DNA of 59,904 bases from Erysipelotrichaceae bacterium (lineage in GTDB: Bacteria > Bacillota_I > Bacilli_A > Erysipelotrichales > Erysipelotrichaceae), in NCBI GenBank assembly GCA_009773735.1, contig WSYG01000004.1, positions 65,932 through 125,835 on the forward strand, written 5' to 3'. Numbering within the stretch: position 1 is the stretch's first letter; the number at the start of each line of letters is the position of its first letter. The translations under genes and the position numbers were made by a program. Positions 9,687 to 24,537 of the stretch are shown piece by piece. The notes below the pieces were generated by a model, which did not search any database, was not told the origin of the DNA, and saw only the letters and a program-made list of their open reading frames with translations.

Positions 9687-10265
9687 TTAGTCTCTGTCTG
9701 ATTCCTGATCATCATCGTTATCGTCATCTTCATCTTCATCATCATCCATATCGTTATCTTCATAATCGTTGTCTGCATCATCATATTCTTCATCATCATC
9801 CATTTCGCTTTCGCTTTTTAGGATAACGCCAGTTGAACTGATCTTGTATTCATATTCAGTTCCGTTGTATTTGAATTCAACTTCATACACAACAAGACCA
9901 TCTTCATCATCAGCCTCTAGTTCTTCAAAAGTGACATCGGCCTCAACCAAACCAGCATCCGCTAATGCGGCAGCTTTGGCCATTTCTAGTCCTGACAAAT
10001 CAGCACTAGGTGTTGGTGTCGGAGTAAGAGTAAGCGTTGGGGTAGGTGTAGGATTTGGCTTAGGCGTAGGCGTTGGAGTAGGAGTAGGCGTTGGAGTAGG
10101 CTTTGGTGTTGGAGTTGGGGTTGGTTTAGGGGCAGGTGCTGTTGATCCAGCACTTGTATCTGAAGTTAAGGCATTAACGCCAATGTTGCCTAATAGCACA
10201 AGGGTGGAAATCCCGACGATTGCTAAACCTGTTAATCGAGTCATATCTTTTTTGTTTTTATTCAT
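9687..10265 (-). CDS. Secreted or anchored PepSY-domain protein with Pro-Thr linker and acidic tail
   Basis: 192 residues from the ATG at 10265, chosen because AAAGGA precedes it; an upstream ATG at 10298 has no site and precedes the likely transcription start. In order: one N-terminal membrane helix (about 11-33), a linker of about 45 residues of repeated P-T/P-K, a PepSY-like domain (A-A-A-L-A-D-A-G and [16 protein letters not shown]), and a C-terminal tail of about 45 residues that is mostly Asp and Glu. PepSY domains are found in secreted regulators and inhibitors. The acidic tail could bind cations. It has its own promoter with the same operator as the adjacent regulator gene, so it is probably the main target of that two-component system. 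Confidence 0.8.
10011..10135. repeat. Pro-Thr repeat-encoding low-complexity tract
   Basis: Reverse-strand codons for P-T and P-K repeat about 20 times with period six. Such a tract is prone to slippage, so linker length may vary between strains. The plus-strand open frame across it is an artefact of the repeat. Confidence 0.8.
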
Positions 10266-10296
10266 CACATGAGTTCCTTTCTCTATGTTAGGTCCC

Positions 10297-10329
10297 ATTA
10301 TGACGAGTTAAGATTAAAACCACATTAGA
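10297..10329 (-). promoter_or_regulatory. PepSY-gene promoter with response-regulator operator
   Basis: On the reverse strand two hexamers, TCTAAT (10329-10324) and TTTAAT (10318-10313), are 11 bp apart, followed after 10 bp by a -10 box CATAAT (10302-10297). The same arrangement is found before the response regulator gene. Confidence 0.7.
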
Positions 10330-10334
10330 ATTGC

Positions 10335-11702
10335 TCAATATAGTGTAAATTTAACAATAAACTTACTACCTTCATTTATTTCACTCATAACGCTGATGTC
10401 TCCACCATGGATCATGGTAATCTTTTTAACCATAGCTAAGCCTAAACCCATTGAACCACGATCATTTGCTGTTCTTGAAGAATCTGTCTGATAGAAGCGA
10501 TTAAAAATCTTAGCTTGATCAGATTTAGGGATTCCTATCCCGTTATCTTCAACGATGAAGGTAAGTGAATCTGATTGTTTCTTGAGAGAGACTTTTATGA
10601 TTCCATTTTCTTTTCCATATTGATAAGCATTATCGATCAGGTTATTCATAAGACGTCCTAATAAGAGAGAATCGCCTTTCATATGGACATTGTCTTCAAT
10701 ATCGGTGATTAGTTTGATGGTGGATTTCCATGCTTCAACCTGCTCACTACAAATGGCAATGGCTAATTCTGACAGATCAATATCTGAGAATTTAGATACG
10801 TCTGGTGATTGATCTAAACGGCTAAAAGACAACAATTGTGTAATCAGATGAGAAATCTTGGTAGCTTGACGATGGATCACACTAAGTGCTTCTTGGTGTT
10901 CTTTAACGGTTTTTGCGCTCTTTTGAGCCAATTCACTTTGAGCTAGGATAACTGTTATGGGTGTTCTTAATTCATGAGAGGCATCTGATGTAAATTGCTT
11001 TTCAGCTTCAAAAGCATTTTCTAAACGGCTCAACATCAAATCAAAATTTGAGGCTAATTTTCCAATTTCATCATGATTATCTTGCAGAACTATGCGTTTT
11101 GATAGATCTCCTCCATTTTTGATTTCATTAGAGGCTTTCATAAGCTTATCAATGGGTTTAAATGCTTGTCTGGAGATAAGGTAGCCACCAATTGCTGCGA
11201 CAAGTACCATAAAAGGTAGTGCGAAAAGGGCAGTCTCAAACAGAGATTGCATAAGATTAGGTGCTGTATCTGCTTCAATTACACCTCTGACCCATACTTT
11301 AACAGAGCCTTCTTCACCTGTGACATTAAAAAGACGATCATAGACATAGTATGTCAATTCTCCATTTGTAATGGTTCTGGTTGACTCACTTACAAACGTC
11401 AATCCTTCACTGACAAATGCATCAGGATAGTTTCCCTTCAATAAAACTTTCTTATCATTATACAAAAGGTTGTACACTTGATTTTGAAATAAGTTGAATT
11501 CTAAATCCAGATCAAGTCTCTCATCATCCATAGACAATGCATTCCCAATCGAATTAACGGTGGCTGAAAGTTGAGCTTTGACATCACGAGTAACAATTGA
11601 ACGACTGATCAGCATCATAAAAATCAAAACTGAGCCTACTACCAGGATCATCAAGAAGGTATACCATAACGTTACTTTAAGTTTAATGGACATATGTTTC
11701 AT
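10335..11702 (-). CDS. Sensor histidine kinase
   Basis: 455 residues. Transmembrane helices at about 8-33 and 156-176 enclose an extracellular sensor of about 120 residues. A HAMP domain (about 177-230) follows, then HisKA with the phospho-acceptor His243 in S-H-E-L-R-T-P, and a HATPase domain with the N box N-N-L-I-D-N-A (353-359), G1 box D-N-G-I-G-I-P and G2 box G-L-G-L. All catalytic motifs are intact. Its ATG overlaps the stop of the response regulator gene (ATGA). The signal is unknown; envelope stress or cations would fit a PepSY target. Confidence 0.93.
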   Translation of the reverse strand: MKHMSIKLKVTLWYTFLMILVVGSVLIFMMLISRSIVTRDVKAQLSATVNSIGNALSMDDERLDLDLEFNLFQNQVYNLLYNDKKVLLKGNYPDAFVSEGLTFVSESTRTITNGELTYYVYDRLFNVTGEEGSVKVWVRGVIEADTAPNLMQSLFETALFALPFMVLVAAIGGYLISRQAFKPIDKLMKASNEIKNGGDLSKRIVLQDNHDEIGKLASNFDLMLSRLENAFEAEKQFTSDASHELRTPITVILAQSELAQKSAKTVKEHQEALSVIHRQATKISHLITQLLSFSRLDQSPDVSKFSDIDLSELAIAICSEQVEAWKSTIKLITDIEDNVHMKGDSLLLGRLMNNLIDNAYQYGKENGIIKVSLKKQSDSLTFIVEDNGIGIPKSDQAKIFNRFYQTDSSRTANDRGSMGLGLAMVKKITMIHGGDISVMSEINEGSKFIVKFTLY

Positions 11703-12376
11703 GTTTCATCTCTTAGGACATAACCACTGCCCCTGACGGTATGGATCAGTTTAATCTCAAAATCATCATCGATTTTCTTTCTTAAATAACGAATGTAAAC
11801 ATCGATGACGTTAGAGTTAGATTCTTTCTCAATGGATGTGATTCGATCTTCAATGTGTTCTCGTGATAAAACGATCCCTTTATTACGAATCATCACTTCA
11901 AGAACAGCGAATTCTTTAGCAGATAAATTAATTCGTTGGCCATTACGTGATACTTCTTTGGTTAAGATATCCATGCTTAAATCAGCGATCGTAAAGATGT
12001 TGGTTTTAACTCCACTGCTTTTACGAGTGATCAATCTTAAACGAGCCATCAATTCTTCAAAAGCGAATGGTTTGATTAAGTAGTCATCTGCCCCAAGATC
12101 TAAGCCAGTAACACGATCGGATATGGCATCTTTTGCGGTAAGCAATAATACTGGAACATTTATTCCGCGACTTCGCAAACGTCTTAAGACTTCAAAACCA
12201 TTAATTCTTGGGATCATGACATCCAAAATGACCGCATCAAAAACAAGCTCACTTTCTAAAAAAGCTAAAGCCTGTTCACCATCAAAGCAGGATTCACATA
12301 TCCAACCTTCTAGGGTCAATTTTTTAGTGATAATACGGTTTAAGTCTTTTTCATCTTCTACGATCAGGATACGCAT
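11699..12376 (-). CDS. OmpR-family response regulator
   Basis: 225 residues: a receiver domain (1-115) with acidic pocket E7-D8, phospho-acceptor Asp52 in V-I-L-D-V-M-I-P, switch Thr in L-L-L-T-A-K and Lys in Y-L-I-K-P-F, then a winged-helix DNA-binding domain (about 125-225) ending H-T-V-R-G-S-G-Y-V. OmpR-type regulators bind direct repeats 10-11 bp apart. Such a repeat lies just before its own -10 box and before the PepSY gene, so it probably controls itself and that gene. AGAGGTT precedes the ATG. Confidence 0.94.
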   Translation of the reverse strand: MRILIVEDEKDLNRIITKKLTLEGWICESCFDGEQALAFLESELVFDAVILDVMIPRINGFEVLRRLRSRGINVPVLLLTAKDAISDRVTGLDLGADDYLIKPFAFEELMARLRLITRKSSGVKTNIFTIADLSMDILTKEVSRNGQRINLSAKEFAVLEVMIRNKGIVLSREHIEDRITSIEKESNSNVIDVYIRYLRKKIDDDFEIKLIHTVRGSGYVLRDET

Positions 12377-14275: not shown

Positions 14276-15538
14276 TTACTGTTTTTTCTTGGTGACTTTA
14301 GCAAAGACCAACACCAACACGACACCAATGAAACCAAATATACCACTGGCGATAAAGTATGCATTGTATCCACCTTGTGCTCCAAATGTGTTCCACAAGA
14401 AGGTATTGAAGATCGGAATCAAAACATCTGGTAGATAACCAATGAAGGAAACCACACCGATGGCAGTCCCTAAGATGAAAGCTTCTAGTTTATAGTCACC
14501 CAACAAGGACCAATAGGTTCCGCGGATGGTGTAGAAGAAGATTGCTAAGATGACCACTAATGGGAAGAAGACGGCTTTACCTAAACTCACTGGCAATAAA
14601 GCAGCAACGATAAGACACGTACTGGCAACAACCAATGCCACCATCTGAATCTTTGTTCGCCCAAATTTATCGGCTAAAAGTCCGCCTAAGAATCCACCAA
14701 TGGGTCTCATCCATAACACAACGACCATAATTGAGGCAACGGTTACTGAATCTAAGCCAACATTGGATTCTAAGAAACCACCAATGTAGTAAACTGTCCA
14801 GAATACGATATAACCCATGAATATGATGCCACCATGCAGATAAACATTGATATCTTTAAACAGCATTTTGACATATGACCATTGAAATTTATCAGATTTA
14901 GCACCCAGTGCTGCATTTGATTTAATAAGTTTTTTATCATCTTGAACAAAGATCATAACTAAGGCTGAAACAACCAACAACATGATCGAATACATATAGA
15001 TGACAGCGATCAAAGCTTCACGTTTATCAACTAAGTTTAAACTGTCTCCTAAGATACCAGAGAAGATAAAGAGCGCGACACTGGCCAATAAAGCTTCAAC
15101 CAAACCGCGACCTCCATCCAAAATCCCAAAGAATTTGCCTTGCTCATTGTCGCTACCCAACAAACGAACGATTTTCATATGAGCACTCCAGAATGTAAAG
15201 ACAGAGAAGATACCCCATAATCCAAAGATCATAACTACATTTTCATAATTGGGAATCTGAGCAAACCATAAGCCCCCGATACCAGTAAAAAACAAAGACA
15301 CAGCCAAGAGTTTCTTAGCTGAGAAGACATCACTGAGATAACCACTAGGAGCATATCCAAATACAAACACTAAACCAATGACCGAATACATGGTGTTCAG
15401 TTGCGGTAAGGTCATATTAAAGACCTGGAGGATGGTTTCTTGATAACCTTGCTTCAAGAAGATCAGAGGATAAATCGACCCAGCAGCTAAAACAACCAAA
15501 AACAATTGAAAATACTTTTTAATCTGAGTTTGGCTCAT
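14276..15538 (-). CDS. MFS transporter, YqcE/YihN-like (paralogue 1)
   Basis: 420 residues, about 12 transmembrane helices. It is a close paralogue of the transporter at 18366: shared stretches include the start K-K-Y-F-Q-L-F-L-V, Y-Q-E-T-I-L-Q-V-F-N-M, F-T-F-W-S-A-H-M-K-I-V and R-G-T-Y-W-S-L-L-G-D. The start is taken at 15538, after AAAGGG; an upstream in-frame ATG at 15571 has no site. It has its own promoter carrying the RpiR-type operators, so it belongs to the adjacent catabolic regulon although separately transcribed. By resemblance to E. coli YqcE it may carry a sugar, sugar acid or phosphorylated substrate; the substrate is unknown. Confidence 0.85.
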   Translation of the reverse strand: MSQTQIKKYFQLFLVVLAAGSIYPLIFLKQGYQETILQVFNMTLPQLNTMYSVIGLVFVFGYAPSGYLSDVFSAKKLLAVSLFFTGIGGLWFAQIPNYENVVMIFGLWGIFSVFTFWSAHMKIVRLLGSDNEQGKFFGILDGGRGLVEALLASVALFIFSGILGDSLNLVDKREALIAVIYMYSIMLLVVSALVMIFVQDDKKLIKSNAALGAKSDKFQWSYVKMLFKDINVYLHGGIIFMGYIVFWTVYYIGGFLESNVGLDSVTVASIMVVVLWMRPIGGFLGGLLADKFGRTKIQMVALVVASTCLIVAALLPVSLGKAVFFPLVVILAIFFYTIRGTYWSLLGDYKLEAFILGTAIGVVSFIGYLPDVLIPIFNTFLWNTFGAQGGYNAYFIASGIFGFIGVVLVLVFAKVTKKKQ

Positions 15539-15649
15539 AGGAACCCTTTCTTTGTGAGCGCGACGAATCATATTTCAGAATATGTTCGTAACTAGTGTGC
15601 ACTACGTCTCATGAAATGATACATCCAAGAATTAAGCACTAATGTCTTC

Positions 15650-15678
15650 ATCGTAAACGCTTACTTTTTGATTGTCAA
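15650..15678 (-). promoter_or_regulatory. Promoter of the first MFS gene
   Basis: Reverse strand TTGACA (15678-15673), 17-bp spacer, TACGAT (15655-15650). The leader of about 105 bases carries a perfect inverted repeat CATATT-TCAG-AATATG at 15569-15584. Confidence 0.8.
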
Positions 15679-15730
15679 GATAATTTTCTTTATAAATAAC
15701 AAACAATGCTTATTATTGGAAAGTTTTCTA
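15679..15730. promoter_or_regulatory. Paired RpiR-type operators of the first MFS gene
   Basis: Two sites with centres 40 bp apart: GATAATTTTCT (15679-15689) directly next to the -35 box, and TGGAAAGTTTTCTA (15717-15730) upstream. The same pair with the same 40-bp distance precedes the divergent operon. Confidence 0.7.
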
Positions 15731-15792
15731 TTAATCAAGGAAATCGCTTTAGATAAAATCCTTTGAGTTGTTATCATATCACAGCATTAAAA

Positions 15793-15818
15793 AAGCTCCT
15801 TCTTGGGAGCTTGATAAA
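15793..15818 (-). terminator. Terminator of rpiR
   Basis: Reverse strand AAGCTCC / GGAGCTT stem followed by a T run. It separates rpiR from the first MFS gene, so the two are different transcription units. Confidence 0.82.
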
Positions 15819-15824
15819 GCAAGG

Positions 15825-16529
15825 TTATGTTGCAGATCTTAATCGTTGAATGACCTCTTCAATAAAAATCATAAAGACAGTTCTTGATTTTTCGTGAGGT
15901 TGAAGGTCAGAAGACTGTGGAAATTTTGATAACCAGAACATTTTATCGCAAGTACTGATCAGTGAAGGATTATATTCTTCAGCAACCACCAGAACTTCTC
16001 CGCCTTTAGATTTCGAAAGTTCAAAGATGCTTTGGAATGATTTAAAAGAACCAGTGGTCGTTAAGACAACCAATAAGGTCTTATTATCGACCATAGATCT
16101 TACTGACAGTTCATCTGAAAGTGCGATGACGGTTTTGTTGGTACATACGCGCAATTTATATTCGAAGTACTGTGCCATCAGAAAAGAAGGACCATATCCA
16201 AACAAAATGACTTTCTCATATTCATTGAGGATTTCAATAAAATCGTCAACAAGTTTCAAGTCGAAATCTTCAATGAATTGTATTAAGCGATCAAGTTCAC
16301 TGGAACACTTTTTCTTTGCTGGAGTACGCCCATACACAAAATCCATATATTGCTTAAAATTAGTAAAACCAAGTTTCTTGGATAGTTTAGAGACTTTTGA
16401 GATGGAGCATTGGCTGATTTCTGCAGCTTCACGTATTTTTAGATCAGAGTGATCTTTAGAGTATGTGTGGATTGCTTGATAGACATTTAGCTCTAATGGA
16501 TTCAAACGACTTAAGTCAAGGTTAATCAT
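15825..16529 (-). CDS. RpiR/MurR-family transcriptional regulator
   Basis: 234 residues: an N-terminal helix-turn-helix of the RpiR type (about 1-75; I-R-E-A-A-E-I-S-Q-C-S-I-S-K-V-S-K-L-S-K-K-L-G split across two helices) and a C-terminal SIS sugar-phosphate-binding domain (about 90-220; L-F-G-Y-G-P-S, then T-T-T-G-S). RpiR proteins sense phosphosugars. AGGAGGTAAT precedes the ATG. A near-perfect TGGAAAATTTTCTA lies at its own transcription start, which suggests autorepression. It sits between the two transporters and controls, by inference, both. Confidence 0.92.
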   Translation of the reverse strand: MINLDLSRLNPLELNVYQAIHTYSKDHSDLKIREAAEISQCSISKVSKLSKKLGFTNFKQYMDFVYGRTPAKKKCSSELDRLIQFIEDFDLKLVDDFIEILNEYEKVILFGYGPSFLMAQYFEYKLRVCTNKTVIALSDELSVRSMVDNKTLLVVLTTTGSFKSFQSIFELSKSKGGEVLVVAEEYNPSLISTCDKMFWLSKFPQSSDLQPHEKSRTVFMIFIEEVIQRLRSAT

Positions 16530-16557
16530 TAAATTACCTCCTAAAGGAATTAAAAAG

Positions 16558-16604
16558 TGGAAAATTTTCTACTACTATCTTAACATTCTATGGTTCAAGC
16601 GTAA
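16558..16604 (-). promoter_or_regulatory. rpiR promoter with operator at +1
   Basis: Reverse strand TTTACG (about 16605-16600), 17-bp spacer, TAAGAT (16582-16577), then TGGAAAATTTTCTA at 16558-16571 over the predicted transcription start. Confidence 0.6.
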
Positions 16605-16634
16605 ACATAATATGAAGAATTATAACACTAATAA

Positions 16635-16686
16635 TGGAAAATATTCCATAATTATATAAAATATGTAATAAATATAGAAAATTATC
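16635..16686. promoter_or_regulatory. Paired RpiR-type operators of the catabolic operon
   Basis: TGGAAAATATTCCA (16635-16648, perfect TGGAA arms) and AGAAAATTATC (16676-16686) have centres 40 bp apart. The second abuts the -35 box. Relative to the predicted start their centres are near -41 and -81. Confidence 0.72.
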
Positions 16687-16715
16687 TTGACAAGGTTTTG
16701 GGGTCGTTCTATGAT
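16687..16715 (+). promoter_or_regulatory. Promoter of the ygc-like catabolic operon
   Basis: TTGACA (16687-16692), 17-bp spacer, TATGAT (16710-16715). A leader of about 57 bases leads to AGGAGGA before the first gene. Confidence 0.85.
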
Positions 16716-16778
16716 GTAAGCGTATTCACCAAAAATGTGTTTCGCTCAACAAACAGGTCGACCAGGAGGAACTAGAAC

Positions 16779-18251
16779 ATGAACCACGATACATTACTAC
16801 TTGAATTATCTAAGATACTACAAAAAAACCAAATCAATACCAACTCAGATGAGTTGTATGATGCGTCGGCAGATCGCTACAAGAAGTATGCGAAAGCAAG
16901 AAAAGTACTTAATGTACCAGCTCCAGTCGCCATTGTTTATCCAAAATCAACCCGTGAAGTCAGCACATTGCTGAAGTTTTGTAACGACAATGACATCAAT
17001 GTTATAGCTCGTGGTGGAAAGACAGCTACTGAAGGCGGACTTGAAAACTGGAAAGAAACAACGTTAGTCATTGATGCATTATATTTAGACAAAATCATCA
17101 AAGTTGATTACTACAACATGCAGGCAACCGTTCAAGCGGGTGTTGCCTTACAAACCTTAGAAGATGTCGTTCGTCCAATGGGCTTTACAACAGGTCATTC
17201 TCCACAATCAAAACCAGTCGCGAAATTTGGCGGCTTGGTCGCAACCAGAAGTATCGGTCAATTCTCAACATTATATGGTGGAATCGAAGATATGGTCGTT
17301 GGTTTAGAATGTGTGTTCCCTGATGGTCACATTTCACTGATTAAAAACGTTTCTCGCAGAGCTGGCGGGCCTGATATCCGTCATATCGCTATCGGTAATG
17401 AAGGAACTCTATGCTACATCACTGAAGTGACTGTAAAACTGTTCAAACACTTCCCTCAAAACAATCAATTCTTTGGGTATCTGATCAAAGATGTCGATAC
17501 AGGCATCAGTATCTTACGTGAAGTCATGGTCAATGGTTATCGTCCTTCGGTTGCTAGAACCTATTCTGAAGGTGATGCTGGTCAACATTTCTACCACTTC
17601 CATAAAGGCCATTGTGTTTTGATCTTCATGGCTGAAGGTAACCAAGACATCGTAGATGCAACCGCAAAAGGCATCTTACGTGCCGTTGATAAATTCAGTG
17701 AAGGCATCATCGAAAAAGTCGACAGTCAACTCATCGAAGATTGGTTCAATCATCTCAATTGGTCTCAAAAAGACATCGATGATGAATTTGAAGGGATGCT
17801 AGAAAAAGATTATCATGCTGGATTCACCACAGAAGTCTCTGCCGATTGGGAAACCATCGTTCAGATCTATAAAAACGTCATGCGTCGTATCACCAATGAA
17901 TTTCCTAGAGCCAGTGATCTAACCTTGTTGGGTGGCCATTCATCCCACAGTTACATCAATGGGACCAATATGTACTTCGTCTACAACTACAAGATCAACT
18001 GTAATCCAGAAGATGAGCTACGCATTTATCATCATCCTCTACAAACCATCGTCGTTGAAGAAACGCTGAAACTGGGTGGTTCGATGTGTCATCATCACGG
18101 TATTGGTAAATATCGCAATGAGTGGACCAAAGAAGAACACGGATCTGCTTACTACATGCTTGAAAAGCTAAAAGAAGCTTTTGATCCTAAAGGCATCATG
18201 AATTTTGGAACCATATTTCCACAAGAAGACGGGAAGAAGTATCAGAAGTAA
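16779..18251 (+). CDS. FAD-linked oxidoreductase, YgcU/alkyl-DHAP-synthase-like
   Basis: 490 residues. An N-terminal FAD-binding PCMH domain (about 45-230; V-A-I-V-Y-P-K-S and I-A-R-G-G-K-T-A-T-E-G-G) is followed by a C-terminal FAD-oxidase domain with the active-site motif C-H-H-H-G-I-G-K (about 438-445) and the closing D-P-K-G-I-M-N. The HHHGIG form resembles alkyl-DHAP synthase and E. coli YgcU rather than simple glycolate oxidase. With EtfBA encoded in the same operon, it probably hands electrons from a hydroxyacid- or polyol-type substrate to the electron-transfer flavoprotein. First gene of the RpiR-controlled operon. Confidence 0.88.
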   Translation: MNHDTLLLELSKILQKNQINTNSDELYDASADRYKKYAKARKVLNVPAPVAIVYPKSTREVSTLLKFCNDNDINVIARGGKTATEGGLENWKETTLVIDALYLDKIIKVDYYNMQATVQAGVALQTLEDVVRPMGFTTGHSPQSKPVAKFGGLVATRSIGQFSTLYGGIEDMVVGLECVFPDGHISLIKNVSRRAGGPDIRHIAIGNEGTLCYITEVTVKLFKHFPQNNQFFGYLIKDVDTGISILREVMVNGYRPSVARTYSEGDAGQHFYHFHKGHCVLIFMAEGNQDIVDATAKGILRAVDKFSEGIIEKVDSQLIEDWFNHLNWSQKDIDDEFEGMLEKDYHAGFTTEVSADWETIVQIYKNVMRRITNEFPRASDLTLLGGHSSHSYINGTNMYFVYNYKINCNPEDELRIYHHPLQTIVVEETLKLGGSMCHHHGIGKYRNEWTKEEHGSAYYMLEKLKEAFDPKGIMNFGTIFPQEDGKKYQK

Positions 18252-18286
18252 AATTTGTATTATCATTCGCTGAATTGGGCAGGGTA

Positions 18287-18326
18287 TCGTACTTGATCTA
18301 GATTCCGGGGGAATTTACAGGTACGA
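18287..18326 (+). other. Structured intercistronic RNA between the oxidase and the second MFS gene
   Basis: Nested inverted repeats TCGTAC...GTACGA (18287-18292 / 18321-18326) enclose ATTCC-GGG-GGAAT (18302-18314). There is no T tract. It may protect or process the mRNA, or be a small regulatory element. Confidence 0.5.
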
Positions 18327-18365
18327 AGAGGCCTTTGGCGAGTAAATAATAAACAAGGAGGGCCT

Positions 18366-19646
18366 ATGAGCCAGGAAAAGTTCAAACGATATTTTCAGTT
18401 CTTTTTGGTTATTTTAGCAGCGGGTTCGATTTATCCATTGGTGTATTTGAAGAGTAACTACCAAGAAACAATCTTGCAAGTCTTCAATATGTCTAATGCA
18501 CAACTCAATACGATGTATACAATTTTGGGTTGGGTATTCGTATTCGGTTATATTCCGAGTGGAATCTTAAGCGACCGTTTCTCAGCGAAGAAACTGTTGG
18601 CGATCTCACTATTCTTCACCGGTCTTGGTGGTTTGTGGTTCGCGCAAGTTCCTAATTACGAATATGTTATGGTTATCTTCGGTATCTGGGGGATCTTCTC
18701 TGTATTTACGTTCTGGAGTGCCCACATGAAAATCGTCAAATTGTTGGCGACTGAAAATGAACAAGGCACATTCTTTGGAATCTTGGATGGTGGTCGTGGG
18801 GTTGTTGAAGCTCTGTTGGCCAGTTTAGCGCTCTTTATTTTCTCTGGTATCTTAGGCGATAGCTTGAATATTGTTGACAAACGTGCTGCACTTATTGCGG
18901 TCATCTACATGTATTCTGCAGTCTTGATCATCACATCCGTTATGATTTGGTTCTTTGTTCAAGATGACAAAAAAGTATTGGCTCTTGATGCGAATAAGAA
19001 AGAAGCTGTTAAGTCACCTGCTTTCAAATTCTCTGAATTAGGCAGTTTATTCAAAAACAAAAAAGTATATCTCTTAGGTGGTATTATCTTTATGGGCTAT
19101 GCTGTATTCTGGACTGTTTATTACCTGAGCTGGTTCTTAGAAACCTACGTCGGTATTGATCCTGTTTCAGTTGCTGGTACCATGGTCGTTGTCTTGTGGA
19201 TGCGTCCAGTTGGCGGCTTCATTGGTGGATTCTTGGCTGACAAAATTGGCAGAACCACAGTTCAAATCGGTGCTTTAACCGGTGCTGCAGCTTGCTTAGT
19301 CGCCATATCTGTTCTTCCAGTTGCTGGCAATGAGGGTTTATTCCCAACATTGATCATTGTCTTGGGTATCTTCTTATATGCCATCCGCGGTACTTACTGG
19401 TCACTGTTGGGCGATCTTAAATTAGATGCTATTATTCTTGGAACCGCCATTGGAGCCGTCTCCTTTATCGGTTATATGCCAGACATCATCCTTCCTGAAT
19501 TCAACACATTCTTGTGGAAAACATTCGGAGATATGGGTGGCTTCAATGCTTACTTCATCTCAAGTGCAATTCTAGGCATGATCGGGGTTGTCTTGGTCAT
19601 CGTCTTTGGAATCATGGTTAAAAAGGAAAACAAAGCCGTCAAATAA
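18366..19646 (+). CDS. MFS transporter, YqcE/YihN-like (paralogue 2)
   Basis: 426 residues, about 12 transmembrane helices, the length of E. coli YqcE. It shares long blocks with the transporter at 14276 (for example W-G-I-F-S-V-F-T-F-W-S-A-H-M-K and R-G-T-Y-W-S-L-L-G-D). AAGGAGG precedes the ATG. It lies two bases before etfB. Two such paralogues under one regulator may import two related substrates or act as importer and exporter. Confidence 0.88.
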   Translation: MSQEKFKRYFQFFLVILAAGSIYPLVYLKSNYQETILQVFNMSNAQLNTMYTILGWVFVFGYIPSGILSDRFSAKKLLAISLFFTGLGGLWFAQVPNYEYVMVIFGIWGIFSVFTFWSAHMKIVKLLATENEQGTFFGILDGGRGVVEALLASLALFIFSGILGDSLNIVDKRAALIAVIYMYSAVLIITSVMIWFFVQDDKKVLALDANKKEAVKSPAFKFSELGSLFKNKKVYLLGGIIFMGYAVFWTVYYLSWFLETYVGIDPVSVAGTMVVVLWMRPVGGFIGGFLADKIGRTTVQIGALTGAAACLVAISVLPVAGNEGLFPTLIIVLGIFLYAIRGTYWSLLGDLKLDAIILGTAIGAVSFIGYMPDIILPEFNTFLWKTFGDMGGFNAYFISSAILGMIGVVLVIVFGIMVKKENKAVK

Positions 19647-19648
19647 AT

Positions 19649-20446
19649 ATGAAAATCATCTGTCTCATTAAATTTATTCCAGATGTGGAAGACTTCAAGT
19701 ATGACTATGAACGCAATGTGCTGATTCGAGAGAATATGAAACAAATTCTTAATCCCGAAGATGCCTGTGCTGTTGCATTTGCCCTTACAGTAAAAAGGTT
19801 TTATCCTAGTACTGTGATCGAAGTCTTGACGATGGGACCACAAAGCGTCTCGTCAAAAATGGAAGAGATCTTGAGACTAGATGTTGATCATGCGACCTTG
19901 ATTACGGACAAAGCTTTTATTGGAAGCGATACTTATGCAACCAGCCGTGTCTTGGCCACCTATTTGAAAAGTAGTTCAGTAGATTTAATCTTAAGTGGAA
20001 CGCATACCTTGGATGGCGATACTTCGCATGTCCCTGCACAAATCGCAGAATGGTTAGAGCTTCCCCATGTATCAAACATCATCAGTATCAATATGAATTC
20101 GATGGACTCAGGACGGTTGGTACTCAGCGTCGATCATGATCAAACGATCATGACCTTCGCTGTCCCTTATCCTTCCGTCCTTAGTCTCTCCAAAGATTCA
20201 GCTTTCAAGATGCCTTATGTTCGATATGATGATCTCAATAAAGAGGTATCACATCGTCTAAAGGTCATAGATTGTGCTCAATTGGGTTTAAGAAAAGAAG
20301 AAGTAGGTTTTGATGGATCTAAAACACAAGTCGTTTCGACTTTCGTTAAGACCATGACCAAAAAAGATAAGACCGAAGTTAAAATCGATGAGGCTGGACT
20401 TCAAAGTGTAATCGATCTCCTAAAAGAAAAAGGGGTCCTCGCATGA
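19649..20446 (+). CDS. Electron transfer flavoprotein beta subunit (YgcR-like)
   Basis: 265 residues, the usual EtfB length. Start M-K-I-I-C-L-I-K-F-I-P-D-V, the N-P-E-D-A-C-A-V segment, G-x-D-T-Y-A-T-S-R-V-L and L-S-G-T-H-T-L-D-G-D-T are EtfB landmarks. EtfBA accepts electrons from flavin dehydrogenases; some Firmicute EtfBA bifurcate. Whether this one does cannot be told by eye. It overlaps etfA by four bases (ATGA). Within this operon the donor is presumably the FAD oxidase at 16779. Confidence 0.92.
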   Translation: MKIICLIKFIPDVEDFKYDYERNVLIRENMKQILNPEDACAVAFALTVKRFYPSTVIEVLTMGPQSVSSKMEEILRLDVDHATLITDKAFIGSDTYATSRVLATYLKSSSVDLILSGTHTLDGDTSHVPAQIAEWLELPHVSNIISINMNSMDSGRLVLSVDHDQTIMTFAVPYPSVLSLSKDSAFKMPYVRYDDLNKEVSHRLKVIDCAQLGLRKEEVGFDGSKTQVVSTFVKTMTKKDKTEVKIDEAGLQSVIDLLKEKGVLA

Positions 20447-21405
20447 AGAAGGTCTTGCTTTATCTGGATAAAAATAGACCACAAGATCTCAGTCTTTTCG
20501 CCGCATCAAAAATGTTGGTTAAAGATGAAGCTTGTATCATCAGTGCGATTGGCTATCAAGAAGATTTACCTTTAGGTAACAGTGTTTATGATGAGGTTAT
20601 GATCATCGATGAAAAGCATGTGATGGCTTATGACACCATGAATCTAACAGCTCTACTTAAACAGATTCAGCATGTTCATCATTTCGACATCATACTCTTT
20701 CCATCTACGCCTTTAGGAAGAATCCTAGCCCCACGCTTAGCCATAGCCCTACATGTTGGTTTAGTCGCTGATGTGACAGGGATCGATGCTCATGACGGAA
20801 TCGTTGAATTGATACGTCCTGCGTATAGCGGTAAGCTTATGGCGAAGATTTTAATCAAAGGTGAAGGACCATTGATGATGACCCTGAGACCCAATATCTT
20901 TACCTATCACAGTGAAGATGTGAAACAAACTGTTTATCAAACGTTGAAAAAACATGAGCCAAAAGCATCTGGAATCATCTTACTGGAAACCAAACAAAAA
21001 GTTGCGGGCAAAGATATTCGTGACAGTAAAGTGCTGATTTCTGGTGGAGGTGGGGTTCTTCATCAATTCAATCGACTTGAAGACTTAGCGCGTGTACTTA
21101 ATGCGGTAGTATCGGCCAGTCGAAGGGTTGTGGACTCTGGTGTTGCCCATCGTAAGATCCAAGTGGGTCAATCTGGTAAAACAGTCAGTCCTAAGTTATA
21201 CATCGCGTTAGGCATTTCTGGTTCTGTTCAACACATCGAAGGCCTTAAAAACGTAGAAACAATCATAGCGGTCAATACCAATAAGAATGCACCGATCTGC
21301 AGCTTGGCGACCCTTGTGGTTGAAGGCGATGCAATCGAATTTATAGAAAAACTCTTAGTTAAGATTAAAGAAAACAATTTGAATTTCAAGGAGGAAACAC
21401 AATGA
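20443..21405 (+). CDS. Electron transfer flavoprotein alpha subunit (YgcQ-like)
   Basis: 320 residues. The C-terminal FAD-binding domain is clear: V-G-Q-S-G-K-T-V-S-P-K-L-Y-I-A (about 243-257), G-I-S-G-S-V-Q-H and A-V-N-T-N-K-N-A-P-I, where most EtfA have N-T-D-x-N-A-P-I. It forms the heterodimer with the overlapping etfB product. Its end overlaps the next gene by four bases, so etfB-etfA-SDR form one coupled unit. Confidence 0.93.
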   Translation: MKKVLLYLDKNRPQDLSLFAASKMLVKDEACIISAIGYQEDLPLGNSVYDEVMIIDEKHVMAYDTMNLTALLKQIQHVHHFDIILFPSTPLGRILAPRLAIALHVGLVADVTGIDAHDGIVELIRPAYSGKLMAKILIKGEGPLMMTLRPNIFTYHSEDVKQTVYQTLKKHEPKASGIILLETKQKVAGKDIRDSKVLISGGGGVLHQFNRLEDLARVLNAVVSASRRVVDSGVAHRKIQVGQSGKTVSPKLYIALGISGSVQHIEGLKNVETIIAVNTNKNAPICSLATLVVEGDAIEFIEKLLVKIKENNLNFKEETQ

Positions 21406-22181
21406 ACATTCAAGACGTCAATATGGACTTCTTTTCCCTAAAAGGAAAAAATGCTTTGGTTACAGGCGGTAACAGCGGATTAGGTCAAGCCTTCGCAACA
21501 GCTTTAGCAAAAGGTGGAGCCAACGTTATGGCAGTCAGTATCATGGATGATGGTGGAGAAACCAAAGAAATGATCGAAGCTTGCGGCGTACAGTATAAGC
21601 ATGTTTTTGCGGACATTACAGCCGATGGCGAATGTAGACGTGTCGTTGAAGATTGCGTCAATACTTGGGGCAGTATCGATATTTTAGTCAACTGTGCCGG
21701 TATCTGTATCAATATTGAAGATGTTACTCAATTCGATCGTAAGCCATGGGATAAGATGGTTGCGGTCAATTTAACGGCAGCCTTCGAAATGATCCACGAA
21801 TCATGCAAGTTCATGATCAAACAAAAATCAGGTAAGATCATCAACATCGCTTCCTTGTTTGCCTTCTTGGGTGGACAATGGTCACCTGCTTATGCAGCAA
21901 CCAAACACGGTATCGTTGGTTTAACCAAATCCATGTGTGATGAATTGGCTCAATTCAACATTCAAGTCAATGCGATCGCTCCTGGTTACTTCGCAACCAA
22001 ATTAACAGAAAAAACACGTTCTAATCCAGAACGTAATGCCACGATCTTGTCTCACATTCCAGCGAATCGTTGGGGTTGGTTGGCAGATTTGATGGGAACT
22101 TGTGTCTTTTTATCCAGTGATGCTTCCAATTATGTAAATGGAACAACTGTGACTGTAGATGGCGGTTATTTAATGAGATAA
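21402..22181 (+). CDS. Short-chain dehydrogenase, KduD/YgcW-like
   Basis: 259 residues. Rossmann motif T-G-G-N-S-G-L-G-Q (about 21-29), N-C-A-G, catalytic Ser in N-I-A-S, and Y-A-A-T-K with the Tyr and Lys of the active site. F-S-L-K-G-K near the start and V-N-G-T-T-V-T-V-D-G-G-Y at the end resemble 2-deoxy-D-gluconate 3-dehydrogenase (KduD) and E. coli YgcW. It probably interconverts a hydroxyl and a keto group on a sugar or sugar acid with NAD(P). AAGGAGG precedes the ATG within the end of etfA. Confidence 0.88.
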   Translation: MNIQDVNMDFFSLKGKNALVTGGNSGLGQAFATALAKGGANVMAVSIMDDGGETKEMIEACGVQYKHVFADITADGECRRVVEDCVNTWGSIDILVNCAGICINIEDVTQFDRKPWDKMVAVNLTAAFEMIHESCKFMIKQKSGKIINIASLFAFLGGQWSPAYAATKHGIVGLTKSMCDELAQFNIQVNAIAPGYFATKLTEKTRSNPERNATILSHIPANRWGWLADLMGTCVFLSSDASNYVNGTTVTVDGGYLMR

Positions 22182-22203
22182 TGATGCGCAAGCATCATTT
22201 TCT
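22181..22203 (+). other. Intercistronic GNRA hairpin between the SDR and kinase genes
   Basis: ATGATGC-GCAA-GCATCAT is a 7-bp stem with a GCAA tetraloop and four T. It could be a weak terminator that lowers kinase expression, or an mRNA-stabilising end. Confidence 0.6.
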
Positions 22204-22217
22204 TCTCGAGGTGAACT

Positions 22218-23657
22218 ATGAAAGACAAATATTTAATTGGTGTTGATAGCGGTTCGCAAAGTACCAAAGTCATCATCTTCAATCAAAAAGGACAAATCGT
22301 TACGACTGCCAGCGAAGGTCTAAAACCGATGGTGACCAATAAACTGGGTCATGTTGAACATCCGGATGATGATCTTTGGGATTCATTGAAGGTCGTTTTA
22401 CGTAAAGTCATGAAGGAATTCAAAGGCGATCCAAAAGATATCTTAGGGGTTGGTTTGTGTTCGATTCGTTGTTGCAGAGTTTTCATGAAACATGATGGTA
22501 CTTTAGCAGCCCCCATCATGAGTTGGATGGATGTTAGAGCTTATCAGAAATATGAAGACAAACCGGAAATCGGCTATACTTGTTCAACATCAGGTTACCT
22601 AACATTTAGACTGACTGGATCTTTTAAAGAAATGACGGCCAATGCTTATCAGTGGCAGTTTCCAGTCGATATGGATTCCTGGGATTGGTCAAAAGACGAG
22701 ACCTATTTTAACGGTTTTGGAATTCCTAGAGAAAAACTCATGGACATTCAAGTTCCTGGAACCATATTAGGATATGTCAACGAATGGGCTTCTAAAGAAA
22801 CAGGTTTGCCTGTAGGATTACCAGTCGTTTCAACAGCCAATGATAAAGCTGTTGAAGCTTTAGGTTCAGGTTTGATTCAACCCAATGTTGGATTATTGTC
22901 TTTGGGTACCTATATTGCCTCTATGGTTCATGGTCATAAAAACATCACCACAGGCCAAAGCTTCTTTACCAATCTTTCTTGCATTCCTCATCAATACCTC
23001 TACGAAAGTGGTGGGATCAGACGTGGTATGTGGTTGGTATCTTGGTATAAAAACATCATCGGGGATGAATATGCCTTAAAAGCCAAACTCGATGGATTAA
23101 TCCCTGAAGATGCTTTAGCACGAGAAGCCTTTAATGTTCCTCCTGGATCAGATGGTTTATTGACCATTCCTGACTGGTTGGCTCCGGCATCTCAACTCTA
23201 CCGTAAAGGCGTTATGATCGGTTTTGATGAACGTCATACGCGTGGTCATATCTATCGTTCACTGTTGGAAGGGATCGCCTTGACCCTTAAAAACAGCTAT
23301 GATGCGATGAATGCTGAACTGGGTTCTACTCCAGAAAAGATCATCGTTTCCGGTGGCGGATCAAACAGTGATCTGTATATGCAGATGATTTCTGATATCT
23401 ACGGTGTCAAAGCCATTCGTAATAAAGTTAACGGAGCTGCTGCGATGGGTTCTGCAATCTGTGTGGCTGTTGCGACAGGTTTGTATGATGGCTATACTGA
23501 AGCAGTTGCAAACATGATCGAAGTCAAAGATGAGTTCACGCCTAATATGGAAAACCATAAAGTGTATGAACGTTTCAACACAAGAGCCTATAAAGACTTG
23601 CCGAAATTGATGGAATCTACCCTCAAGGCAGTCTATGCTGGCCTAAACGAAGAATAA
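22218..23657 (+). CDS. FGGY-family carbohydrate kinase (YgcE/xylulokinase-like)
   Basis: 479 residues. N-terminal ATP phosphate motif G-V-D-S-G-S-Q-S-T-K (8-17), second phosphate loop L-S-L-G-T-Y, and the FGGY C-terminal signature V-S-G-G-G-S-N-S-D-L-Y-M-Q-M are present. It would phosphorylate the sugar or sugar-acid substrate after SDR action. The phosphosugar could then be the signal for the RpiR regulator. Last gene of the operon, followed by a hairpin terminator. Closest functional parallel from memory is E. coli YgcE, of unknown substrate. Confidence 0.9.
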   Translation: MKDKYLIGVDSGSQSTKVIIFNQKGQIVTTASEGLKPMVTNKLGHVEHPDDDLWDSLKVVLRKVMKEFKGDPKDILGVGLCSIRCCRVFMKHDGTLAAPIMSWMDVRAYQKYEDKPEIGYTCSTSGYLTFRLTGSFKEMTANAYQWQFPVDMDSWDWSKDETYFNGFGIPREKLMDIQVPGTILGYVNEWASKETGLPVGLPVVSTANDKAVEALGSGLIQPNVGLLSLGTYIASMVHGHKNITTGQSFFTNLSCIPHQYLYESGGIRRGMWLVSWYKNIIGDEYALKAKLDGLIPEDALAREAFNVPPGSDGLLTIPDWLAPASQLYRKGVMIGFDERHTRGHIYRSLLEGIALTLKNSYDAMNAELGSTPEKIIVSGGGSNSDLYMQMISDIYGVKAIRNKVNGAAAMGSAICVAVATGLYDGYTEAVANMIEVKDEFTPNMENHKVYERFNTRAYKDLPKLMESTLKAVYAGLNEE

Positions 23658-23667
23658 ACAAAAAGAG

Positions 23668-23699
23668 AATGAAGCAGGCAAAAAGCCTGCTTCATTTTA
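23668..23699 (+). terminator. Terminator of the catabolic operon
   Basis: AATGAAGCAGGC / GCCTGCTTCATT 12-bp stem with an AAAAA loop and a short T tail (TTTTAG). Some read-through into surE is possible. Confidence 0.82.
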
Positions 23700-23712: not shown

Positions 23713-24504
23713 ATGAAACCACTAATCCTAATCACCAATGATGATGGGATTCATTCGCCTGGTCTTTTGGCTTTAGCCGAAGCCATCAGTGACATTGCGG
23801 ACATCCTCATCGCAGCCCCAATTGCCCAGCAGACTGGTATGGGAAGATCTTTTCCACATATGCCAGATACAGGGATCATCGAAGAAGTACGACTCTTAGT
23901 CAATGATAAAATCACCAAAGGTTATGGGATCCATGGATCTCCAGCTCAAGTTGTGGCGTATGCTATCCTAGAATTGGCCGATCGTAAACCAGACTTTGTG
24001 TTCTGTGGGGTCAATTATGGAGAAAACCTAGGTTTATCTGTGACTTGTAGCGGTACATTAGGTGCAGCTTTTGAAGCCAACAGCCATCGTATCAAAGCCA
24101 TTGCTTATTCCCGTCCAACTGCCTTATCTAAACAACACTCCGAAGTGTTTGATCCAGTGGATTGGACGCCTTTGAAAGCTGTCATTAAAACACTTACTGA
24201 AATTGTCTTAACTAAAGGCTTTCCCGCAAACACAGATATCCTCAATGTTAACTTTCCTAAGCACGTTGACGCATCAACTCCCATTCGCATTACTCGTCAG
24301 AGTCCACAGAATTATTCTGATTTTGTGAAACCTGAACCCAGAGATTTCTCGTTGGCTTATGCGTTGAGTGCCGCAAAGAACGTCAAAGAAGAAGAAACAC
24401 CAAGAAACAGTGATGTCTATGCGGTCATTTATGAACATGCGATCTCAGTTACTCCGTTGACTTGGGATTCATCACTAGACGCCGATCAAAATTGGTTGAA
24501 GTAA
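23713..24504 (+). CDS. surE: 5'/3'-nucleotidase SurE
   Basis: 263 residues, usual SurE size. The N-terminal I-T-N-D-D-G-I-H-S-P-G-L carries the metal-binding Asp pair; Q-Q-T-G-M-G-R-S contains the metal-ligand Ser region; G-V-N-Y-G-E-N-L-G carries the conserved Asn. SurE removes phosphate from nucleoside monophosphates and polyphosphates. AAAAGGGA precedes the ATG. No separate promoter was recognised; it may be read through the preceding terminator. Confidence 0.93.
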   Translation: MKPLILITNDDGIHSPGLLALAEAISDIADILIAAPIAQQTGMGRSFPHMPDTGIIEEVRLLVNDKITKGYGIHGSPAQVVAYAILELADRKPDFVFCGVNYGENLGLSVTCSGTLGAAFEANSHRIKAIAYSRPTALSKQHSEVFDPVDWTPLKAVIKTLTEIVLTKGFPANTDILNVNFPKHVDASTPIRITRQSPQNYSDFVKPEPRDFSLAYALSAAKNVKEEETPRNSDVYAVIYEHAISVTPLTWDSSLDADQNWLK

Positions 24505-24510
24505 TAAGTT

Positions 24511-24534
24511 AAAGGAATCCGTTTGGATTCCTTT
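24511..24534. terminator. Bidirectional terminator between surE and nudF
   Basis: AAAGGAATCC-GTTT-GGATTCCTTT, a perfect 10-bp stem between convergent genes. Confidence 0.85.
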
Positions 24535-24537
24535 GTT

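Follow-up and report, generated by a model that had tools for sequence, protein, structure and literature searches.

We examined a gene cluster at positions 14276-23657 of a 59,904-nucleotide stretch of DNA (the window) from contig WSYG01000004.1 of an Erysipelotrichaceae bacterium, whose assembled genome comprises 82 contigs, totals 1.94 Mb and is 99% complete. The cluster is related to the ygc cluster of Escherichia coli, and we argue that it may serve to break down a betaine-type compound with a glycerol part.

Gene content of the cluster

Eight intact open reading frames fill the interval, with the overlaps described in an earlier note on this DNA. A major facilitator superfamily transporter (MFS1) and an RpiR-type regulator are encoded on the minus strand. 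The six remaining genes lie on the plus strand and, by Pfam, encode in order a flavin adenine dinucleotide (FAD) oxidase, a second transporter (MFS2), the electron-transfer flavoprotein subunits EtfB and EtfA, a short-chain dehydrogenase/reductase (SDR) and an FGGY kinase (Table 1). The overlaps between the EtfB and EtfA genes and between the EtfA and SDR genes are 4 bp each, and the two transporters, rightly called paralogues in that note, share 68% identity.

A ninth gene, surE, lies after the kinase gene and had been overlooked. Since the genome has no other SurE gene, and since 13 of 51 related clusters also have one, mostly directly after the kinase gene, we count it into the system. Two SurE-bearing clusters also encode a damage-control phosphatase of the DUF89/ARMT1 type (L020 8048-8932 and L022 8041-8925), and so have two phosphatases for one kinase. 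Judged by the kinase (91% identity), the closest named relatives of the window's organism are an Erysipelotrichaceae metagenome-assembled genome (MAG) and a bacterium from a 'Loclat' sample.

Table 1. Genes and regulatory features of the cluster, in window coordinates.
Feature	Position	Strand	Evidence or remark
MFS transporter 1, YqcE type, probable importer, MFS2 paralogue	14276..15571	-	MFS_1 3.5e-21; 25% to YqcE, E 5e-38; 68% to MFS2
MFS1 promoter-like site, TTGACA-17-TACGAT	15650..15678	-	consensus match only
Probable RpiR-type operator upstream of MFS1, TGGAAAGTTTTCTA	15717..15730		palindrome
RpiR/SIS-family regulator, divergent from operon	15825..16529	-	SIS domain 1.5e-8
Probable RpiR-type operator in divergent promoter region, TGGAAAATTTTCTA	16558..16571		palindrome; conserved in relatives
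Probable RpiR-type operator, TGGAAAATATTCCA	16635..16648		palindrome; weaker copy at 16670-16687
Operon promoter-like site adjoining operators, TTGACA-17-TATGAT	16687..16715	+	11/12 consensus matches
YgcU-type FAD enzyme, AGPS-like	16779..18251	+	FAD_binding_4 and FAD-oxidase_C; R260, Y399, H438-H440
MFS transporter 2, YqcE type	18366..19646	+	Pfam MFS_1; similarity to YqcE
EtfB	19649..20446	+	ETF 2.7e-19
EtfA, 320 aa, without ferredoxin domain	20443..21405	+	ETF and ETF_alpha 1.7e-26
YgcW-type SDR, KduD-like	21402..22181	+	adh_short; 62% to YgcW; NF005390 308 bits, cut-off 369
YgcE-type FGGY kinase	22218..23657	+	FGGY_N/FGGY_C; 47% to YgcE
12-bp hairpin in the kinase-surE gap; may act as attenuator or bidirectional terminator	23668..23696
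SurE-family phosphatase	23713..24504	+	PF01975 5.2e-42
Terminator-like hairpin 3' of surE	24510..24535	+

Relation to the E. coli ygc cluster

In a blastp comparison against the ygc proteins of strain MG1655 only, within which best hits were judged, the oxidase, SDR and kinase match YgcU (55% identity), YgcW (62%) and YgcE (47%) over their full length, as proposed for a cluster of the ygc type. The two transporters match YqcE at 25% identity over most of its length (E 5e-38 for MFS1 and 3e-41 for MFS2). The suggestion that the locus holds the same set of genes as ygc therefore stands for these proteins, but not in full for the Etf pair, which is only remotely like its counterparts (EtfA to YgcQ, 27%, E 1e-15; EtfB to YgcR, 18%, E 1e-7). 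Among the genes of the window cluster we found no orthologue of YgcS (E 0.012 with MFS1) or of the FixCX-like YgcN and YgcO, and no counterpart of the antiterminator YgcP, in whose place stands RpiR. Compared with ygcNOP-QRSUW-yqcE-ygcE of E. coli K-12, then, the window cluster shares the oxidase, SDR, kinase, YqcE-type transporter and Etf pair; it differs in using RpiR and a probable operator, in having two YqcE-type genes and in carrying surE downstream.

The core genes occur together across phyla, the co-occurrence by which the earlier note proposed to check its reading. Their distribution is patchy: the oxidase is found in 11 of 273 genomes of the window's family and in 6/399, 4/297 and 5/341 genomes of three further groups. 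The oxidase tree splits deeply in two: RpiR predominates in the group that includes the window, YgcP in the group that includes E. coli; the RpiR version is thus an old branch and not a local swap. Both regulators are present in the clusters of Enterococcus and of Claveliimonas bilis (L057). The combination of Etf with a kinase pathway in a single anaerobe operon had been thought new, but E. coli and 37 of the 51 related clusters have the same. To our knowledge, the K-12 cluster has no assigned substrate, and none is described for it, for YgcE or for YgcU in the literature that we searched, with subscription papers outside its scope.

The FAD enzyme carries the catalytic residues of AGPS

The oxidase is 490 residues long and has the CHHHGIG motif that had been noticed before, with its histidines at H438-H440. 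When compared with PDB entries, its top match by phmmer is alkyl-dihydroxyacetone-phosphate (alkyl-DHAP) synthase, AGPS (E 5.7e-44), and in a profile search AGPS scores 3.6e-66 against 5.4e-40 for the next family. R260, Y399 and H438-H440 correspond to R419, Y578 and the HHH of AGPS and are invariant in 89/89 family members. Indeed, R260 and Y399 align with the residues changed in two mutant structures of AGPS, 4bc7 (R419H) and 4bca (Y578F). A second catalytic Arg of AGPS (R447 in Dictyostelium, R515 in guinea pig) falls in a stretch outside the HMMER alignments. The predicted model of the oxidase (pLDDT 86.5) has AGPS as its top Foldseek match, with a TM-score of 0.81.

In eight GlcD-type paralogues, by contrast, the Arg, Tyr and HHH are absent, save for the last His in six of them. 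The xEHGIG motif that GlcD and LctD have near the C-terminus is missing from the window enzyme, which has HHHGIG instead, and the segment around Y399 has no GlcD-type counterpart. Given the failed test for the GlcD-type motif and the retained AGPS residues, we set aside a plain hydroxyacid dehydrogenase, and the idea that the enzyme oxidizes a hydroxyacid-type carbon is not supported.

AGPS, a peroxisomal enzyme of ether-lipid metabolism, abstracts the C1 proton of a DHAP ester, forms an adduct at flavin N5 and exchanges the substituent at C1, with no net redox change (PMC3509576). Among solved families it is the closest in sequence and in Foldseek; the window enzyme differs in its length (490 versus 658 residues, at 24-25% identity), its link to Etf and the small polar substrate expected, and we propose that it would break, not make, an ether. 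The electron-confurcating LctBCD and Ldh-EtfAB systems likewise encode an FAD oxidase of the same fold with EtfBA, but in LctD-type enzymes the motif is xEHGIG and the AGPS Arg and Tyr are missing, and the window EtfA has no ferredoxin domain. Elsewhere in the same genome, locus L126 on contig C17 (6713-16128) carries an LctBCD-like set, with a GntR-type regulator, EtfB, an EtfA with a ferredoxin domain and a GlcD-type oxidase, followed by genes resembling HydE, HydG, aspartase and HydF.

A GlcD-type second oxidase, often with its own EtfBA, is found in clusters of the YgcP clade (L015-L018, L020, L022-L025, L029, L032 and L120). We considered it as part of the core and set it aside, as it occurs in 12 of 51 clusters and in none from the window's clade. 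Its presence suggests that a later step encoded by those clusters yields a 2-hydroxyacid.

The kinase and SDR hint at a glycerol part

The kinase belongs to the glycerol-kinase superfamily and resembles glycerol, xylulose and autoinducer-2 kinases; its residues R84, W103, D209 and K210 are invariant in 79/79 sequences. The SDR falls under the curated cut-offs for KduD (308 bits versus 369, and 276 versus 339), and in one cluster an iron alcohol dehydrogenase takes its place. In sister clusters, YgcP is annotated as a glycerol-3-phosphate responsive antiterminator. A glycerol-type kinase, an SDR for secondary alcohols, an AGPS-like enzyme and, in the sister clusters, an antiterminator annotated as responding to glycerol 3-phosphate together suggest that the substrate has a glycerol part. 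The C. bilis cluster encodes a second, N-terminally shortened YgcE-type kinase (L057 5479-6744; 62% identity to YgcE) that adjoins the RpiR gene.

Betaine-type importers recur in related clusters

We mapped reference genes onto 51 non-enterobacterial clusters with a YgcE-type kinase and onto 20 control loci with distant FGGY kinases. Importers for quaternary ammonium compounds such as betaine, choline and carnitine are encoded in 36 of the 51 clusters, 24 with a BCCT and 12 with an OpuC-type ATP-binding cassette transporter, and in none of the 20 controls (Fisher p 1.4e-8, a nominal value, as the clusters are mutually related and the loci non-independent). Pfam and NCBIfam confirmed both identities. 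Among the window's nearest relatives, which have the same core, a BCCT is found in L013, L121 and L122 and an OpuC in L014. Parsimony on the oxidase tree requires at least ten swaps between BCCT and OpuC, equal to the number with shuffled labels, and the linked BCCTs are as little as 30% alike; two unrelated classes of importer thus replace each other freely. The importers that recur beside the core are BCCT, OpuC and the YqcE-type MFS, and neighbour clustering revealed no recurring sugar-type importer or sugar enzyme there. The KduI, KduD and TRAP genes by the Ilyobacter cluster were discarded as a clue to a sugar, since they lie on the opposite strand with their own GntR and at one locus only.

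Of 20 distinct readable sequences of linked BCCTs, 17 share the pattern W-[SCTA]-N-W-x-[AS]-W at the place of WAWW in BetP, DddT and CaiT. In our alignment, the Asn falls at W320 of DddT, a residue required for transport of dimethylsulfoniopropionate (PMC13270143). Because Asn replaces this Trp, the binding pocket of the linked BCCTs is probably altered. In three Bacilli clusters, a DUF5698/DUF2179 membrane protein adjoins the BCCT or OpuC genes (L016 13219-13731, L111 18235-18738 and L113 2589-3251, the last assigned by sequence resemblance).

Further genes of betaine metabolism occur in some relatives. Four clusters have MttB-family genes; at L115 (5513-7012) and L116 (12954-14453), actinomycete MttB-family genes (590 bits) stand immediately before the ygcW-type SDR gene. 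Four clusters encode an aldehyde dehydrogenase (ALDH) like betaine aldehyde dehydrogenase (BADH), which scores 532 bits against the TIGR01804 cut-off of 668.6 and is 41% identical to BetB. Three of these four also encode a lyase of the aspartase family. The two complete lyases, 36% identical to each other, have GI[GS] and STSD where aspartase has GTS and STND, and retain GSSxxPGKVNP. In aspartase structures the Thr and Asn that are changed here are close to the amino end of the substrate, which we take as no more than a hint. The BCCT or OpuC importer, the Etf pair and the BADH-like ALDH or MttB of these relatives recall the CaiT-FixABCX, betTIBA and MttB/MtgB loci, but we know of no catabolic locus for betaine or carnitine that has an FGGY kinase, a KduD-like SDR and an AGPS-like enzyme.

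Regulation of the operon

Palindromes matching TGGAAAATTTTCYA with up to two mismatches occur at only three sites in the 59.9 kb window (Table 1), all within the two promoter regions of the cluster, and resemble TGGAAAATTTTCCA; the number of matches is not significant alone (6 on both strands, versus 3.4 expected). RpiR-type clusters of Erysipelotrichia, Clostridia, Enterococcus, Priestia, Vibrio and Ilyobacter have this palindrome in their upstream regions, too. Because it is kept in several phyla, it is probably the RpiR operator, and the shared operators that had been proposed are borne out. In the window it is flanked by strong promoter-like sites. The regulator thus comes with both a SIS domain and a conserved palindrome. 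The hairpin before surE may lower its transcription.

A 62-nt inverted repeat (73% identity) links the promoter regions of MFS1 and the oxidase (15672-15733 and 16632-16693), and MFS1 may have arisen by duplication along with its promoter. Outside the cluster, the predicted product of the ORF at 9687-10298 has an acidic tail and a long linker of Pro-Thr repeats, and the ORF adjoins a two-component system at 10335-12376.

A proposed route for a glyceryl-ether betaine

The cluster is real and conserved and its membership of the ygc type is supported; the sugar acid or polyol that had been proposed as its substrate is the weaker reading, as relatives pair the same core with BCCT or OpuC, MttB, BADH-like ALDH and aspartase-like lyase. 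A substrate of the betaine class is likely. Given the betaine importers and a glycerol part, one simple natural candidate would be a betaine linked to glycerol by an ether, which forms the head group in betaine lipids like diacylglyceryltrimethylhomoserine (DGTS). We therefore favour an inducible catabolic operon of the ygc type for a small betaine-type compound that has a glycerol part and, most probably, an ether bond between the two, like that of the DGTS head group, and give this a probability of slightly under one half. For the ether-cleaving role of the AGPS-like enzyme taken by itself the odds are about even, and for the DGTS head group itself as substrate they are about one in three.

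The gene content, the homologies, the catalytic residues, the conserved palindrome and the link to importers were observed; from these we infer a candidate substrate, an order of steps, a redox outcome and an effector. Glyceryl-N,N,N-trimethylhomoserine would be imported by the MFS proteins here, and by BCCT or OpuC in relatives. The FGGY kinase would phosphorylate the glycerol part, and the KduD-like SDR would turn the central hydroxyl into a ketone, so that an analogue of alkyl-DHAP results. The AGPS-like enzyme could then abstract the C1 proton and form the flavin N5 adduct, expelling the betaine alcohol. Water would free the C3 phosphate: hydrolysis of the adduct could yield either DHAP, with no redox change, or an oxidized C3 product and reduced flavin, whose electrons Etf would take. 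These two possible outcomes would explain why Etf is common (37/51) yet not universal. SurE may dephosphorylate misphosphorylated or dead-end intermediates, and a phosphorylated intermediate that binds the SIS domain could lift repression by RpiR. In some Bacilli and Vibrio, alcohol and aldehyde dehydrogenases would convert the betaine alcohol to aspartate betaine, which the aspartase-like lyase could split into fumarate and trimethylamine.

Several observations weigh against this route. The window cluster has MFS importers only; BCCT is absent from its genome, and the genome's one OpuAC protein is encoded on another contig. Likewise, neither BCCT nor OpuC is found within the flanks of 30/30 enterobacterial clusters, which have MFS only. 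The p-value for the importers is nominal, with controls mostly from rumen Clostridia MAGs and clusters that are interrelated. ALDH and lyase occur in four and three clusters, respectively, and neither is in the window cluster; we noticed no lipase gene in the clusters. AGPS chemistry involves no net redox change and so does not by itself explain Etf, which is absent from 14 of the 51 clusters (Bacillales, actinomycete and Vibrio). VIA-align Z-scores slightly favour D-lactate dehydrogenases over AGPS (34.6 versus 32.2); the overall fold thus does not separate the two, and the case for AGPS lies in the residues and the sequence. Finally, the substrate of the kinase could be another hydroxylated quaternary amine.

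This last point leads to the best-placed alternative, a quaternary ammonium or sulfonium substrate with no glycerol ether, such as a hydroxylated betaine, a carnitine derivative or a choline conjugate. Its hydroxyls would be the targets of the kinase and SDR, and the role of the FAD enzyme would simply be to dehydrogenate a carbon and pass electrons to Etf as LctD does. The importers, MttB, BADH-like ALDH and lyase require just a betaine, and the link to Etf suits a true dehydrogenase; indeed, a complex of a same-fold FAD oxidase with EtfAB has been solved (7qh2). We nonetheless hold it to be unlikely, about half as probable as the ether-linked compound, as the enzyme retains the AGPS Arg, Tyr and HHH and lacks the GlcD-type residues, FGGY kinases act on polyol or sugar-like groups, and the glycerol-3-phosphate-type antiterminator indicates a C3 phosphate.

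Less probable still is the sugar acid or polyol, which would be imported, oxidized by the SDR and phosphorylated by the kinase while the FAD enzyme passes electrons from a hydroxyacid carbon to Etf. The SDR does resemble KduD, FGGY kinases commonly act on sugars, the transporters are weakly similar to the model of the D-galactonate transporter (50-60 bits, cut-off 395) and the enterobacterial clusters have MFS importers only. Against this, it is betaine-type and not sugar-type importers that recur beside the core, the SDR stays under every curated cut-off shown, and the oxidase lacks the GlcD-type motif. The least probable account, that the BCCT and OpuC genes serve osmoprotection and lie nearby by accident, with some unrelated compound as the substrate of the core, gains from how common these importers are in many genomes and from a comparison with control loci, not with the background of the same genomes, but it fits poorly with ten independent swaps of the two classes at the same place, their absence from 20/20 controls, the common Asn-for-Trp change in the BCCT pocket helix and the further betaine enzymes beside the importers.

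Implications

A review states that the enzymes that break the DGTS ether are unidentified (PMC9892843), and the literature searched holds no description of bacterial breakdown of the DGTS head group. AGMO is described as the sole known enzyme that cleaves alkylglycerol ethers, and it depends on O2 (PMC3617469, PMC7911779). The route proposed here would share with AGMO the cleavage of a glyceryl ether (PMC3617469), but AGMO is an unrelated protein that needs O2 and tetrahydrobiopterin, and our route would be independent of O2. More tentatively, and with appreciably less confidence than for the operon in the window, ygc-type clusters at large, that of E. coli included, might break down the glycerol-ether head group of DGTS without O2 by means of an AGPS homologue, some of them with a lyase that yields trimethylamine and fumarate.

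For the orphan ygc cluster of E. coli, the comparison points to one narrow class of substrate that lends itself to direct testing. Should the glycerol-ether reading hold, these clusters would supply the missing enzyme that breaks the DGTS ether and a means of cleaving glyceryl ethers without oxygen; in guts and lakes, algal and plant lipids might then also prove to be a new source of trimethylamine.

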